Assembly: GCF_014698995.1 (NCBI RefSeq)
Contig: NZ_JACWZZ010000001.1
Location: forward strand, 1,446,501 to 1,510,500
Origin: Hymenobacter duratus
GTDB lineage: Bacteria; Bacteroidota; Bacteroidia; Cytophagales; Hymenobacteraceae
DNA: 64,000 nucleotides
Direction: 5' to 3'
Under the pieces are notes generated by a model. It saw nothing but the letters and a program-made list of their open reading frames with translations, was not told the DNA's origin and did no database searches. Of the stretch, positions 8,423 to 14,404 are shown piece after piece. Within the stretch, counting starts at the first letter, position 1; the number at the start of each line of letters is the position of its first letter. The translations under genes were made by a program, and so were the position numbers.

Positions 8423-9433
8423 TCAGGGCGCCTGCAATACCCGGCTATGGGGTTCGGGAGCCGCTACCAACCGGCGCAGGGATAAGGCAGTCAGAAGCAG
8501 TGCAATAGTTGGGAATACGATGAGCCACCAACAGGACGGCGCAATCCGGCCGGCAGCGAGTAGGCGGCCCCAGCTAGGTAACTCAGGCGGCAGTCCTACC
8601 CCCAGAAAGGACAAGGTGGTTTCAAGGCTGATAAGTATGGCCAGGCTGAGTGGTACCGCGGTACGTACCACGTGCCAACAATTGGGCAGAACGTGACGAA
8701 GAAGGATTTGGTGTGCCGGCAGGCCCAGGGCAACAGCTGCTTCGAGGTAAGGCAGCCAGCGGATTCGGCGCACTTCAGCACGAATCAGCCGGGCCGTAGG
8801 CACCCAGAATGTGAGTGTAAGCAACAGAACAAGGGTGGTAACACTGGGCGTAACGGCTGTGGCAACCAGCACCACCAGCAACAGCCGCGGCAAAGCGGCC
8901 AGAAACACAATAGCTGCTGATACCAGAGAATCGACGGGCAGGGCAACGGTAGTACGCCACTGCGAAAACCGCGACAGGGCAACGCTCAACAACAGGCCAC
9001 CTCCGGCCGTACACCAAGGCCACCACCCTGCCAGTACACTGTTTGCCGGTGCTGCGAAGAAGATGTAAAAGATCAGCGCCACGGCCACTGAACCCAACCA
9101 GTGCTTTGGTATCCGCAGACGGGTGTTGCCCCAATATCCAGCGGCAACTCCTAGTGCGGTGCCTAATGCGCTGGCAAGCAGGGTAGTTGGTATACTGACC
9201 AGCAGAGCAGTGCGTGCGCCATACAGCATGCCGCGTAAGACATCCTGACCCTGCGAGTCAGTACCAAGTAAGTGGCCGGGGGTAAGCGGAGCGGCATTGC
9301 TGCGCAGCAGGTCAGGGCCGGTGGGTAAAGAAAACAAATCAGCGAGTAGCGCAGCCGCTGCCAGCAGCAACAGCCAGCCGAGGCTAAGGTGCCAGCTCCA
9401 GTTGCGCTTGGTACGAAGGCCGGTGCTGGTCAT
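8423..9433 (-). CDS. ABC transporter permease, DppC/OppC type
   Basis: 336 residues from ATG 9433. That start overlaps the upstream permease stop as TCAT on the plus strand (ATGA coupling), which is why it is preferred to the ATG at 9490. Six or so membrane helices start with WLLLLAAAALLADLF. The DppC family signature HLLGTDSQGQDVLRGMLYGARTAL follows the first helix. The cytoplasmic EAA loop reads EAAVALGLPAHQILLRHVLPN. It pairs with the DppB-type permease in import of peptides or nickel-type ligands. No ATP-binding subunit is encoded in the window. Last gene of the operon. Confidence 0.88.
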   Translation of the reverse strand: MTSTGLRTKRNWSWHLSLGWLLLLAAAALLADLFSLPTGPDLLRSNAAPLTPGHLLGTDSQGQDVLRGMLYGARTALLVSIPTTLLASALGTALGVAAGYWGNTRLRIPKHWLGSVAVALIFYIFFAAPANSVLAGWWPWCTAGGGLLLSVALSRFSQWRTTVALPVDSLVSAAIVFLAALPRLLLVVLVATAVTPSVTTLVLLLTLTFWVPTARLIRAEVRRIRWLPYLEAAVALGLPAHQILLRHVLPNCWHVVRTAVPLSLAILISLETTLSFLGVGLPPELPSWGRLLAAGRIAPSCWWLIVFPTIALLLTALSLRRLVAAPEPHSRVLQAP

Positions 9434-10482
9434 GCCGGGCGGTTTCTGAGCCGTGGGTCGGCGAGCAAATACAGCGCCTCCGCTAGCCAAAGCGAAATCT
9501 GGCGTACCACTACTACCAACCCCACGCCTGCCAGCAGCACGGGAAAATCACGGGCGGCGGCAGCTTCGGCAAGCAGCCGGCCGAAGCCGGGCAGGGCAAA
9601 AATCAACTCCACGACCAAGGAGCCCGCCAGTAAGTTAGGGAGCAGGTCGGTGAGCAAGGTAATGCTGGGAAGCAGGGCATTGCGCAGGGCATGGCGGCGC
9701 AGGGCCTCTGCTGCCGATAGTCCTTTAGCCCGCGCTGCCAACACATATTCCTTCTTGATTTCTACCTGCAGAGCGCCGGCCAGCTGCACGGCTGGCGCCG
9801 TAATGCCAGTCAAAACCAGGCTGGCTACCGGCAATACCAGATAGCTCAGATAATTAATAGGTGCACTCCGGAAAGATACCGCATCTGTGCCGAGGCCGTA
9901 AGCCGGAAAAAGGGCCAGCATATCCGGACTGGCCAGAAACAGCAGCAGCAACAGCGCTACCACAAACAGCGGCAAGGTATCCAGCGCAAACAAGGTAGCC
10001 AGCGCCAGACGGCGCCCTGATACAGCCAGCCAGATGCCCAGCGGCAAAGACAGCCCGGCTAGCAGGGCCGCCGACAACAGGGTGAGAGACACCGTATGAT
10101 ACAAAGAGCCACGTAGTAGCTCGCCCACCGGTTCGCCGGTGCGGTACGATTGGCCGGTATCACCCTGAAGCAGCTTGCTTAGCCAGCGGTGATACTGATT
10201 CTGGGTGCCGGTCCAGCGCCAGCGCGGTGCCAGCGGGGCCTCGGATACATCCGCCTGAGTCAGGTAGAAAAGCGGAATATCCAGCCCTAGACGATGCCGG
10301 GCCTGTGCCTGGGCCACCTGTAGCTGTTGGGCGGAAGCGGCGAGAGGAACGCTAGAAGAGGCAAAGCGCGCCAGCAGATCCTGCTCATTCGGAAGAGTAC
10401 GCGTAAGCAGAAACAGCAGGGTTATGATGCCCCAGCTGATAAGCAGCGTCTGACCCAGTTGAGAAAAAAAACGCCCCGCCAT
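9430..10482 (-). CDS. ABC transporter permease, DppB/OppB type
   Basis: 350 residues. It starts with the family N-terminus FFSQLGQTLLISWGIITLLFLLTRTLP, followed by a periplasmic segment with RHRLGLDIPLFY. The EAA loop is KKEYVLAARAKGLSAAEALRRHALRNALLP. The end is a final helix plus LLADPRLRNR, as in DppB proteins. It forms the membrane channel with the DppC-type partner, whose ATG overlaps its stop by four bases. The substrate-binding lipoprotein stops only 3 bases upstream, so the three genes form one operon. Substrate is inferred only from family: di- or oligopeptides are most usual. Confidence 0.88.
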   Translation of the reverse strand: MAGRFFSQLGQTLLISWGIITLLFLLTRTLPNEQDLLARFASSSVPLAASAQQLQVAQAQARHRLGLDIPLFYLTQADVSEAPLAPRWRWTGTQNQYHRWLSKLLQGDTGQSYRTGEPVGELLRGSLYHTVSLTLLSAALLAGLSLPLGIWLAVSGRRLALATLFALDTLPLFVVALLLLLFLASPDMLALFPAYGLGTDAVSFRSAPINYLSYLVLPVASLVLTGITAPAVQLAGALQVEIKKEYVLAARAKGLSAAEALRRHALRNALLPSITLLTDLLPNLLAGSLVVELIFALPGFGRLLAEAAAARDFPVLLAGVGLVVVVRQISLWLAEALYLLADPRLRNRPA

Positions 10483-10485
10483 CCG

Positions 10486-12210
10486 TCAAGGCTTGGCAGA
10501 CGCGAGCTGCAGACTCAGTACATCGTAGCCCGGGCGCACGCTCAGCGTCCGCACCGACGTTACGCGGCGGGTGGTGATGAGCCGGTTCCGCGTAAAATAC
10601 AGCACCACCAGCGGCGACTCGCGCCGTAGCAGCACCTGGAAGCGCTTCAGCAGCCGGGCATGGCGCTCCGGAGAGGGCTCGGCTGTTATGGCTTCGATGA
10701 GCTCGTCGGCTGCCGGCTGGCTGAAACGACTATAATTAATCAGGCCGATACCACGTGTATGCAGCAGAGGCATAAAATTGTAAGCGAATGGATTTCCGGA
10801 TGTTTTACGGATGAACATGTCCGTATCGCCGGTGGCTAGCTGTTGTTGAAGCAGGCCTGCCTCCGCAGGGCGTAGCTGCACCTCAACCCCAATACGCGCC
10901 GCAGCGGCCTGAAACTGCAGCGCCACGGTTTCATGCTCGGTAGCACCCGCATGGTAGCTGATACGCAAAGCCAAGGGCCCGATTTTGCCGTTCCACCAGC
11001 CGCCGGCGGGGCGCAGCTGCCAGCCCGCTAACTGGAGCTGGCGACGGGCTTCAACCGGAGAAAAAATGAGATTCGGCAAGCTGTCCTGGTAAGCCAGTCG
11101 GTCGTGCGGGTTTATCAGGCTTACACTTCGGTACGCCAGCCCCTGATGCGTTGCCTGCATCAGATCCGGAATATTGAACAGGAGACTGAGTGCCCGCCGG
11201 GTAGCCGCCGTGCGTAGCATGGGCCGTTGCGTATTGAAGCCGACCACCAGCATATCGTACGAGTCGGCCGTGTAAAACGCCAGCCGTGCCGTGTCGGCCG
11301 AAGCCCGCATTGCCGTGAAGTCACGCGCGGTAGGCATCGGGTACAGGTCCAGGCTGCCGCGCCGCAATGCCAGTAGGGCAGTCGTATTGTCCGGAATTAT
11401 TTGATAAGCCAGCTTCTCGGGTCTGGCCTGCAGCCACGGGGGCGGCTTGGGCAAGCGGTTGGCCCACCAGCCCGCTTTACGTTCCAGCACCATGTAACGG
11501 TTGCTTTCCCAGCTTTTGAGCCGATAGGGACCACAGCCGGGAAGCCGATCCGGGTGCCGCGACAACTGCGCTTGCCGGTAGCGTGCCGCGAAAGCACGGA
11601 GTGCCGGATGGCGCCTGACGGCTTCTGCCGTATCAGTGCGTAGCAGGGCCAGTGGCACGGCCCGTAGCGTACCTAATGGGTCAAGGGAATATTCCGGCAG
11701 GATGGAATAGTCGCCGGATGCCAGTACAATATCCGGCGAAGCGCTGCTGCAAATCAGGGTAAAGCGCCGGGAATCAGCAGAGTCCAGCTCTATTTCCTGC
11801 ACAAACCCATATTGGGCTCGCGCAAACTCAGTGGGAAGTCCCGGGCAGTGCATCACCCGAAGGGTGAAGGCGACGTCACGGGCCAGTACAGGCTGGCCGT
11901 TGTCCCAGGTAGCTTCTGCCCGAAGCTGGTAGGTGAGGCGGGTCAGGGAGTCGTGCCGGCTGATTTTCGGCAGAGACTCAACCAACCACGGTACTATTTG
12001 AAGTTGTTCCGGATTGCTGGTCAGCAAACTGCAATGCAGTAAGTTGATAACCTCAAGCGCCTGTGGGGAACTCACCAGGAGCGGATCCAGCGTTTCGGGG
12101 TCACTGGGCCAGCGGATACGGATTGTATCCGCAGAGTCCGTAGAAGCAGTACAGCCGGTAAGCGCGCCACAAAGGACCAGTAGTAATACTAAGCTCGGAA
12201 GAAGCCTCAT
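10486..12210 (-). CDS. Lipoprotein substrate-binding protein of a peptide-type ABC transporter (SBP_bac_5 family)
   Basis: 574 residues. A lipoprotein signal peptide ends in the lipobox LTGC with Cys20. Family 5 solute-binding features follow: IRIRWPSDPETLDPLLVSS, the TYQLRAEATWDNGQPVLARDVAFTLRVM segment, CGPYRLKSWESNRYMVLERK, and LSLLFNIPDLMQATHQGLA. The protein should capture a peptide-like ligand outside the inner membrane and pass it to the two downstream permeases. About 80 bases upstream on the same strand is the tandem-repeat peptide gene, so ligand and binding protein may be linked. That link is an inference from position only. Confidence 0.88.
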   Translation of the reverse strand: MRLLPSLVLLLVLCGALTGCTASTDSADTIRIRWPSDPETLDPLLVSSPQALEVINLLHCSLLTSNPEQLQIVPWLVESLPKISRHDSLTRLTYQLRAEATWDNGQPVLARDVAFTLRVMHCPGLPTEFARAQYGFVQEIELDSADSRRFTLICSSASPDIVLASGDYSILPEYSLDPLGTLRAVPLALLRTDTAEAVRRHPALRAFAARYRQAQLSRHPDRLPGCGPYRLKSWESNRYMVLERKAGWWANRLPKPPPWLQARPEKLAYQIIPDNTTALLALRRGSLDLYPMPTARDFTAMRASADTARLAFYTADSYDMLVVGFNTQRPMLRTAATRRALSLLFNIPDLMQATHQGLAYRSVSLINPHDRLAYQDSLPNLIFSPVEARRQLQLAGWQLRPAGGWWNGKIGPLALRISYHAGATEHETVALQFQAAAARIGVEVQLRPAEAGLLQQQLATGDTDMFIRKTSGNPFAYNFMPLLHTRGIGLINYSRFSQPAADELIEAITAEPSPERHARLLKRFQVLLRRESPLVVLYFTRNRLITTRRVTSVRTLSVRPGYDVLSLQLASAKP

Positions 12211-12289
12211 GGATGCGCAGCGAGCAGATTAAACCTGCTGGGCAAGTTAGCTAAGAATTCCGATGGCACGTATTCCGGGCTGCGAAGTC

Positions 12290-12505
12290 CTACTTGCCCG
12301 TCCAGCCGCCCGAGCCGTGGTCAGCGTCGATACCAGTCCAGCCACCTGAACCATGGTCAGCGTCAATGCCCGTCCAGCCGCCCGAGCCGTGGTCGGCGTC
12401 GATACCAGTCCAGCCACCCGAGCCATGGTCAGCATCTGCCGACATAATCGTAGGATTTGAGAAGGTGCTGATTTGAAACAGGGCGATGGCGAGTAATTCC
12501 AGCAT
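12290..12505 (-). CDS. Tandem-repeat small peptide: four 12-residue units DADHGSGGWTG(I/K)
   Basis: 71 residues with no family I can name. Residues 1-23 (MLELLAIALFQISTFS ...) form a mildly hydrophobic leader without the positive charges of a Sec signal. Residues 24-71 are four back-to-back copies of DADHGSGGWTGI, the last ending in Lys before TAG. Every base difference between units is synonymous apart from the final codon, which supports translation in this frame. A four-unit open frame also exists antisense, with codon third positions aligned, but it alternates Ile and Met and has no leader. The gene is upstream of the peptide transporter operon on the same strand. It may be a multi-core precursor peptide, a signalling peptide, or a binding repeat. 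Confidence 0.65.
   Translation of the reverse strand: MLELLAIALFQISTFSNPTIMSADADHGSGGWTGIDADHGSGGWTGIDADHGSGGWTGIDADHGSGGWTGK
12293..12436 (-). repeat. Four tandem 36-bp repeats with a 72-bp alternating pattern
   Basis: Units 1 and 3 resemble each other and units 2 and 4 resemble each other at silent positions (for example ACT GGT ATC versus ACG GGC ATT). This suggests a past duplication of a 72-bp pair. There are no spacers, so this is not a CRISPR array. Confidence 0.85.
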
Positions 12506-12874
12506 GGCGTTGAGGAGTTGTGTCGTTCAAGTGATTGATTGACACAAAGGTGGGCGCAAACTCAAGCCGCGTAAAGGAAAGACTTGTTGGAAAAGTGATT
12601 TGTATAAAAATTATAATTTGTTTAATATAAATTATAGGCCAGAATAGATAAAGTTGGATATCTCCTTATTGCAAAGCTAACTGGTATGATGAAAGATGCT
12701 CAAATCCCGTTGAAATGTGACATCTTGGCTCAAAAAAAAGTCTATTTCCTCTTTACAAAGGTCTGGATAGATTCCTGTGGTTGTAAAGGAAAATCTGTGT
12801 TGTTTTGTGACAGGGCTTTCGCCAGCAGAAAAAAGTGCTGAAGCCGGCCTACAGCTTTTATTCCGGTTTTTAGA
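12506..12874. other. A/T-rich divergent intergenic region between the repeat peptide and the helical-repeat protein
   Basis: No gene is seen in 369 bases. On the minus strand CACCTTTG (12552-12545) is one base off TAnnTTTG, with a TTT about 20 bases upstream; it could drive the repeat peptide. On the plus strand TTGTTTTG (12800-12807) is a weak -7 candidate for the gene at 12875. Two TGTGACA motifs lie here (12716-12722 and 12806-12812), with a third just inside the next gene (12904-12910). The stretch around 12600-12660 is markedly A/T-rich. Confidence 0.5.
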
Positions 12875-12910
12875 ATGGACGATTTGACAAATTTGGCTCG
12901 TATTGTGACA
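12716..12910 (+). promoter_or_regulatory. Cluster of three TGTGACA motifs
   Basis: TGTGACA occurs on the plus strand at 12716-12722, 12806-12812 and 12904-12910. All fit the extended form WWWTGTGACAK. Two more copies lie beyond the far end of the transporter operon (8248, 8416). They could be sites for a regulator of this block. No protein is identified and chance cannot be excluded. Confidence 0.3.
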
Positions 12911-14404
12911 GACAGGAAGCTGAAAGTGCTTCCTCTGCTGGATTTTACTACCCGAAATTCGTCCAATAAAGAGATGCAACTGGTAAGGCTGCTTACCGAT
13001 AACCAGTCAAGAACACAGCAGCAGATCATTAAGTCGCTGTATAGCAAGACCGATAAGGTGCGGCAGACGGCCTTTCGTAAACTTAAGTCGCGGGTGCAGC
13101 AAAAGCTACTCAATCACCTCTACTTTCTCGATGAGACTGATCCGCGGCATCTGGTTTCGCGGCGGTATGAGCACCAGTTTCTGGGCCTGTACCTGCAGGT
13201 GAGTACGCTATACTCGGAAGGTGAGTTGAAGGCCGCTGAGCCGCTGTGCCGCAAAGCCTTACGCATTGCCCAGACGCAGGAGATGACGCAGTATGCTGTG
13301 TTGTGCGGGCAACTGTTGCGTAGCATTTATGCCGATATGCGGCTGCCGGTGCGCTACCAGGCCAACAAGGAACTCCTGGCCAGAAACCAGCAGCTGCTGG
13401 CACTGGAAGAAGAAGCTGCCCAGATTTATTGGGATATAAAAGCCACCATTGCCTACACCGTGCGTACGAGGCGCTCTATCCTGGAGAAGATGGAGGTGCA
13501 CGTAAAACAATTGGAGCAGCTGCACCGCCAGGCCGGTTCCTACGCTACCTTCCTCTACCACTACCGCACCCGCCTGATTCAGGAAGAGCTGATAGGAAAC
13601 TATGAGGCGGTGATACGGATAACGGCAGATACCGCTCAGCAACTGGCGCAGGGCAAGATAAACGACAAGCGCTTTGACAAGCGGTTCAATGCGTACATAA
13701 GCGTTTATGCGCATTTCAGGAGCCGCCAGGCCGTTAAAGGACTAAAGCTGGCGGAGGAATACGCCAAGGACTTTCACTATTCGTCGGTCAACTGGCTCTA
13801 CTACCTGGAGATTTATCTGCTGCTGGCTATCCATGCCGGGCAGTATGGGCAGGCGCTGGAGTTGATGGATACTGCCCGCAAGAATGTTCATTTTGCAAAA
13901 CAGCGCGCCCTGGCTCAGCAGCGCTGGGACCTGTATGAAGCCTATCTGCAGTTTGTGCGCCCGGAAATATCGCCGGTGCGGATGCGCAACTTCACCACTT
14001 TCGTGCAGACTATCCCGGACCATAGCCGCGACAAGCAGGGCTACAACGTAGCCGTACTGATTCTGCAGTTTCTACACTTTCTGCGCCAGCGGGATGTAGA
14101 AAGCATCTTAACGCGTCTGGAAGGCTTGCGCAAGTACCAGCAGCGGCACCTGCGGGAGTCAGGCAACCTGCGCAGCCAGTTGTTTTTCCGGATGCTGGCT
14201 GTTACCGTGAAATCGGACTTCGACCCCGTGCGCAGCCAGCAGAAGGCGGAGCCGCTGCTGAAGAAGCTGCAGGCTGCCCCGCCGCCCGGTGAAGCGTTTG
14301 CCGAAATTGAGATAGTACCCTACGAAGAGCTGTGGCAGATAACGCTGGAAATCCTGCGTGCCACAGCGCTTTACAATGCCTTGCAGGATCAGGAACTGCG
14401 GTAA
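12875..14404 (+). CDS. Unrecognised 509-residue all-helical (TPR-like) protein
   Basis: I cannot assign a named family. Residues about 33-87 (EMQLVRLLTDNQSRTQQQIIKSLYSKTDKVRQTAFRKLKSR..., continuing to YFLDE) have the pattern of a small winged-helix-like segment: helix, SRTQQQI turn, and a basic helix TAFRKLKSRVQQKLL. The rest is predicted helical hairpins resembling tetratricopeptide repeats, for example LYSEGELKAAEPLCRKALRIAQ and HAGQYGQALELMDTARKN. There is no signal peptide or membrane segment, so it is cytoplasmic. It is divergent from the repeat peptide and transporter operon. The layout recalls TPR regulators of peptide signalling, but DNA binding is unproven. Confidence 0.75.
   Translation: MDDLTNLARIVTDRKLKVLPLLDFTTRNSSNKEMQLVRLLTDNQSRTQQQIIKSLYSKTDKVRQTAFRKLKSRVQQKLLNHLYFLDETDPRHLVSRRYEHQFLGLYLQVSTLYSEGELKAAEPLCRKALRIAQTQEMTQYAVLCGQLLRSIYADMRLPVRYQANKELLARNQQLLALEEEAAQIYWDIKATIAYTVRTRRSILEKMEVHVKQLEQLHRQAGSYATFLYHYRTRLIQEELIGNYEAVIRITADTAQQLAQGKINDKRFDKRFNAYISVYAHFRSRQAVKGLKLAEEYAKDFHYSSVNWLYYLEIYLLLAIHAGQYGQALELMDTARKNVHFAKQRALAQQRWDLYEAYLQFVRPEISPVRMRNFTTFVQTIPDHSRDKQGYNVAVLILQFLHFLRQRDVESILTRLEGLRKYQQRHLRESGNLRSQLFFRMLAVTVKSDFDPVRSQQKAEPLLKKLQAAPPPGEAFAEIEIVPYEELWQITLEILRATALYNALQDQELR

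Follow-up and report, generated by a model that had tools for sequence, protein, structure and literature searches.

A candidate peptide-pheromone locus with a divergent TPR receptor-like protein and its own importer genes in Hymenobacter and related Bacteroidota

Peptide pheromones that are read inside the cell are described from Firmicutes (Bacillota), the group searched in two large surveys (PMC9765709, PMC10075063). In the RRNPP/RRNPPA systems (Rap-Phr, NprR-NprX, PlcR-PapR and AimR-AimP), a small precursor gene adjoins the gene for a TPR-domain receptor, and the precursor consists of a hydrophobic N-terminus, a linker and a C-terminal core. Published accounts describe the adjacent propeptide as 10-100 aa long (PMC10075063), the receptor as having 5-9 TPR repeats that form a C-terminal superhelix with a groove for the peptide (PMC9765709), and the pheromone as occurring in up to six tandem copies (PMC9765709), an arrangement that has been studied experimentally (PMC11343458). 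For Bacteroidota, a 2026 review names acyl-cyclolysines as a signal (PMC13419125), and our literature searches, with many subscription papers outside their reach, found no published description of an RRNPP-like system. Here we analyzed a 64,000-nt window of the Hymenobacter duratus genome (NZ_JACWZZ010000001.1), whose numbering is used throughout, and focused on a locus with four elements: a repeat-containing precursor peptide, an oligopeptide-type substrate-binding protein (SBP), two permeases, and a TPR-like protein encoded divergently from the others (Table 1). We consider it probable that this locus is a Bacteroidota peptide-pheromone circuit working like Gram-positive RRNPP quorum sensing.

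The four elements had been noticed in a sequence-only reading of the window, and the coordinates of the open reading frames (ORFs) confirmed their positions. Domain matches to SBP_bac_5 and, twice, to BPD_transp_1 substantiated the binding lipoprotein and the two same-strand permeases, whose genes form a tight minus-strand run after the peptide gene, while the start codons of the peptide and TPR genes lie 369 nt apart. We examined 80 loci. Apart from the window itself, 56 came from Hymenobacter, 20 from five further GTDB genera of its family and three from outside that family. A similar peptide was encoded divergently from the TPR gene at 79 of them, the sole exception being a second TPR copy (L093) in genome G047. 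A second, overlapping set of 80 loci, five of which were read by eye, also yielded the peptide at 79, with the SBP and both permeases coming next at 75. The peptide scripts sought hydrophobic starts and Trp motifs, so all these numbers are counts of a sought pattern. Random occurrence of the transporter without the peptide or TPR gene, which had been named as evidence that would undo the association, was not observed: in Hymenobacter, 56 of 61 genomes carried both the TPR and the SBP gene and the remaining five lacked both, and the order TPR / peptide-SBP-permease-permease was also kept in Rhodocytophaga and in the five GTDB genera sampled besides Hymenobacter. Family-wide, 196 of 204 genomes had the TPR gene; the eight lacking it all belong to the genus of the window and possibly reflect one loss event. 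Seven of these eight were checked, and each contained one SBP_bac_5 protein scoring like the general copy of genome G000. Two minor arrangements were also seen. One Hymenobacter genome (G112) carries a second peptide-TPR-SBP set (L196) with a different core, IGDSGWGHD, in which the SBP gene lies beyond the far side of the TPR gene. Some Pontibacter-type genomes (L122, L124, L177, L186 and L187) have a second, diverged TPR gene behind the first in the same direction.

The peptide ORF is a real gene, and its core is under selection at the protein level. The peptide, previously read as four repeats, does end in four perfect core units, and the gene contains a DNA repeat with a period of 36 nt (3.7 copies, 81% matches). 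We compared codons at positions W-4 to W+2 between the cores of one precursor, where random single changes are expected to be 75% non-synonymous. The four units of the window differed by 18 synonymous and 0 non-synonymous changes, which places the repeats beyond chance. Within the precursors of 46 multi-core loci, the totals were 2447 synonymous and 254 non-synonymous differences, and 39 of the 46 had no non-synonymous difference at all.

Residues 1-16 of the leader followed the pattern M-[LF]-E-L-[LI]-A-x-A-L-[LF]-Q-[LF]-A-[ST]-[LF]-T, with Gln11 present in 71 of 79 precursors. Between leader and core lies a linker that is often rich in Thr or Ser, and the core showed Gly at W-4 in 77 precursors and Trp, which was the selection criterion, in all 79. 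More than one Trp core was found in 46 precursors, which came from Hymenobacter and its sister GTDB genus g38 with the exception of the distant L168 (two cores); the number of cores reached 18 in Hymenobacter. The other 33 precursors had one Trp, and 27 of these terminated 4-5 residues past it (for example GGTGTWDDSN, IGTSGWDDRN, YGGTGTWDNKD and IGGNGWGETH). Outside Hymenobacter the precursor was mostly Phr-like, with a hydrophobic start, a Thr/Ser linker and one C-terminal core such as GGTGTWDDSN. In Adhaeribacter soli (L115, L206), the whole peptide gene was present in three tandem copies rather than having multiple cores.

The divergence of the core was then related to that of the neighbouring proteins at 63 loci. 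The Mantel correlation was highest for the TPR domain (0.669), followed by the SBP (0.642), and was 0.585 and 0.611 for the permeases, 0.596 for the N-terminal domain of the TPR protein and 0.354 for the leader. After control for the other four proteins or domains, the TPR domain retained a partial correlation of r = 0.218, a value reached in 0 of 500 permutations; the partial correlations of the remaining ones were at most 0.066 and were reached in at least 37 of 500 permutations. These results are suggestive of covariation between the core and the TPR domain, in a test that ignores tree structure.

The 509-aa protein, whose closest relatives are from Hymenobacter (identity up to 88%), gave only sub-threshold TPR matches in Pfam and none of relevance in NCBIfam, and a profile search of PDB sequences returned only a designed protein (E 0.053). 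Structure prediction had been suggested as a check, and the AlphaFold2 model is a helical-repeat protein (pLDDT 85.6) with 18 helices from residue 94 to 508. The top nine rows of its VIA-align comparison were all Rap and NprR pheromone receptors. The predicted fold of the protein resembles Rap and NprR best, and the model is consistent with the grooved TPR superhelix described for RRNPP receptors, so the earlier description as TPR-like holds for the modelled fold, with sequence matches staying below threshold. The winged-helix-like segment proposed for the N-terminus was not established: the first 90 residues are predicted to form helices in a helix-turn-helix (HTH)-like order without strands, no profile or PDB-sequence match exceeded chance, the AlphaFold2 model of this domain was middling, and its fold matches were weak, with no RRNPP HTH domain in the VIA-align listing.

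The intergenic region between the peptide and TPR genes contains recurrent boxes. Across 56 Hymenobacter intergenic regions (window included), the 8-mers TTTCCTTT and ATGTCACA had counts of 36 and 38, whereas no 8-mer exceeded 9 in 20 mononucleotide shuffles. TTTCCTTT is part of modules composed of TTCCTTT, a spacer of ~20-27 nt and CTTTG, with the latter lying ~45 and ~255 nt before the peptide start; CTTTG presumably resembles part of the Bacteroidetes -7 element. The proximal module was present at 69 of 76 family loci (0.7 expected) and at none of the three loci outside the family, and the distal module at 29 of 56 Hymenobacter loci (0.9 expected). We rejected a general promoter class for these boxes, as the exact pattern TTCCTTTN{20,27}CTTTGT had two matches genome-wide, both at this locus. 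A looser pattern, searched in 26 genomes, was near or below its reversed control in most and exceeded that control ~1.8- to 2.6-fold in G009 (Hymenobacter), G180, G197, G066 and G069; these loose matches give no evidence in either direction. The tandem modules fit a locus-specific autoregulatory switch and are a putative target of the TPR protein.

In the circuit that we propose, the precursor would be exported and cut by proteases into Gly/Trp peptides of ~8-12 residues, whose ends would lie 4-5 residues past Trp, judging from the single-core homologues. The SBP and both permeases of the locus would return the peptide to the cytoplasm, powered by a fused Opp-type ATPase encoded elsewhere. There the TPR protein may bind it in its concave groove, as its predicted fold and the core-receptor covariation suggest, and may control the divergent peptide-SBP-permease unit, and perhaps its own gene, via the duplicated boxes within the 369 nt that separate the two start codons. 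No ATPase gene lies within the locus; two oligo_HPY matches occur elsewhere in the Hymenobacter duratus genome, apparently within one fused ATPase gene, and 13 other genomes each have one or two such matches. Computed support comes from the conserved quartet of elements, the selection on the core, the joint absence of TPR and SBP genes, the covariation, the receptor-like fold and the locus-specific regulatory pattern. Against the circuit it counts that export, import, DNA binding and output are putative steps. The RRNPP-like signalling put forward by the sequence-only reading is partly supported, by co-occurrence, synteny and the Rap/NprR-like fold. If the proposal is true, peptide-receptor-importer logic also works behind an outer membrane, common environmental bacteria carry testable pherotypes, and the question of a convergent origin arises.

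Compared with RRNPP systems, the locus has the same adjacency of precursor and receptor genes (79 of 80 loci), the same order of hydrophobic N-terminus, linker and C-terminal core, and several core copies per precursor; some multi-core forms exceed 100 aa and reach ~270 aa. Whereas RRNPP export via Sec/PptAB goes with a basic N-terminus and a hydrophobic stretch, here the hydrophobic start was conserved and 73 of 79 precursors had no Lys or Arg through residue 20. For re-import, putative importer genes adjoin the peptide gene, apparently in the same transcription unit, which together with the divergent gene order, the Gly/Trp core motif and up to 18 cores sets the locus apart. We regard the locus as working like RRNPP systems and do not file it as a member because it has no profile match, no basic leader residues, a co-encoded importer and a different, Gram-negative phylum. 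The transporter itself has the SBP and permease domains of oligopeptide ABC importers (an OppA/DppA/NikA-type SBP_bac_5 protein with two permeases) but differs from them in its missing ATPase and in accompanying a general SBP copy in G000, G002 and G103; in G180 and G197 the locus SBP is the sole copy.

How the peptide would cross the outer membrane is left open by the proposal, and the signal could thus inform a cell about its own periplasm in addition to its neighbours. The strongest alternative, which we consider unlikely, is self-monitoring, in which imported periplasmic proteolysis fragments tell the TPR protein about the state of the envelope or of export. A Gram-negative importer draws peptides from the periplasm, the Thr/Ser-rich linkers would match an exported protein, and the operon appears autoregulated, all as self-monitoring would have it. 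The species-specific diversification of the core with a covarying TPR domain, and the differing core of the second set in genome G112 (L196), are more pherotype-like, though neither is decisive.

A somewhat lower probability falls to a multi-core precursor of a ribosomally synthesized and post-translationally modified peptide (RiPP) or a bacteriocin. The repeats would then be the cores, the product would be modified or antimicrobial, and the transporter would serve uptake or immunity. The tandem, near-identical cores behind a leader are as in graspetides and His-Xaa-Ser repeat peptides, and the peptide showed weak NCBIfam similarity to GRASP_targ_2 (E 0.014) and HxsA4 (E 0.034), both below cut-off. 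However, no maturation enzyme or peptidase-type exporter was recognized in the ORF clusters common to at least 13 of 56 Hymenobacter loci (ORFs of at least 120 aa, judged by eye and by window homologues and only partly profiled), the divergent TPR partner is kept, the transporter is of the importer type, and the single C-terminal core that dominates outside Hymenobacter fits poorly. The multi-core alternative that the earlier reading had offered is left with its repeats, which are real, and no recognized enzyme among the shared genes.

We regard it as improbable that the peptide is a secreted structural or adhesive repeat protein that merely neighbours a nutritional peptide transporter. Such a reading draws on the Hymenobacter neighbourhood, which is conserved well past the quartet, so that adjacency inside the genus is weak evidence. 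At nine loci outside the genus, including that of Rhodocytophaga aerolata, the quartet stays while the flanking hemC, PPIase and RmlD genes were not found; the one short core of most peptides outside Hymenobacter and the absence of TPR and SBP from the same genomes also argue against it. Finally, a cis-acting leader peptide, whose translation would control the transporter irrespective of the peptide product, is suggested by a short Trp/Gly-rich ORF directly upstream of the transporter but is largely rejected as very improbable, because G064, from the GTDB genus of R. aerolata, keeps peptide and TPR side by side while its SBP gene lies at a distance of ~1.2 Mb, which makes the peptide-TPR pair the core unit, and because Imperialibacter L280 has no SBP within the 7 kb examined and the hydrophobic leader and core are conserved as protein.

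Relatives of the signalling pair proposed here were also found farther away. Of 395 genomes sampled from the phylum, 12 had TPR homologues at E <= 1e-50, and four of these 12 were Hymenobacter. Nine such loci lie outside Hymenobacter; a divergent peptide whose leader was similar, as judged by eye for all distant homologues, was present at three (L286, L288, L291), L283 has a candidate if an internal Met is taken as its start, and no leader peptide was visible at the other five. In Imperialibacter, Trp-core peptides adjoin both TPR genes (L279, L280), one of them with an adjacent SBP. In Kapabacteria, 19 TPR matches occurred in 14 of 23 genomes, and upstream sequence was available at 16 loci. 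Seven divergent leader peptides there end in DR-x-ED (mostly IDRxED) and one in VIDRTEGN, while eight loci show no visible leader peptide: seven have nothing, and L298 has only tandem IIDRGE repeats, which also occur at L295. The K/R-free hydrophobic start with a DR-x-ED or similar end was noted at L286, L288/L292, L293, L295, L297, L299, L304 and L309. These patterns suggest a single receptor family with several peptide codes. We give roughly even credence to a broader reading, in which Gram-negative Bacteroidota and Kapabacteria have a phylum-wide family of peptide signalling through intracellular receptors, with a shared K/R-free leader, a Gly/Trp code (Hymenobacteraceae, Rhodocytophaga, Imperialibacter) or an Asp-Arg-x-Glu-Asp code (Kapabacteria), and, in Hymenobacter, up to 18-fold amplification and an own importer. 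At L164, L178, L283 and L291, divergent peptides, some certain and others only possible, combine a K/R-free hydrophobic start with different tails, perhaps further codes. The TPR paralogues L108-L110, L160-L163, L165-L167 and L169-L173 showed no visible leader peptide. In several members of the order (L108, L165, L166, L169), a separate TPR paralogue is divergent from a conserved ~145-aa gene with a hydrophobic segment, which we take to resemble DUF1232/YkvA.

Table 1. Positions of the genes and intergenic elements of the locus in the 64,000-nt window
Feature	Position	Strand	Remarks
Opp/Dpp/Nik-type permease 2 (BPD_transp_1)	8423..9490	-	domain match; likely start ATG near 9433
Opp/Dpp/Nik-type permease 1 (BPD_transp_1)	9430..10482	-	domain match
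SBP_bac_5 lipoprotein, oligopeptide-type binding protein	10486..12210	-	start 79 nt past peptide stop codon
Precursor peptide gene, 71 aa	12290..12505	-	K/R-free hydrophobic leader (MLELLAIALFQISTF) and four tandem cores DADHGSGGWTG
Proximal promoter-like module TTCCTTT-N-CTTTGT	12544..12579	-	~40-75 nt upstream of peptide start codon
Second TGTGACA box	12716..12722	+	
Distal copy of TTCCTTT-N-CTTTGT module	12755..12791	-	~250-287 nt upstream of peptide start codon
TGTGACA box	12806..12812	+	~65 nt upstream of TPR start codon
509-aa receptor-like protein	12875..14404	+	HTH-like helices ~32-84; TPR-like superhelix ~94-508

For permease 2, the ATG, which overlaps the stop of permease 1, is more probably the start than the TTG at 9490. 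Searches against PADLOC and PHROGs gave no match at E <= 0.01, and the Rfam search gave a sub-threshold match only. Downstream of the TPR gene, the window contains OmpA/PD40 and TPR genes. At 36 and 38 of 56 Hymenobacter loci (for example L051), two genes judged by eye to be response-regulator-like, and absent from the window, lie ~1.5-6 kb downstream of the TPR gene.

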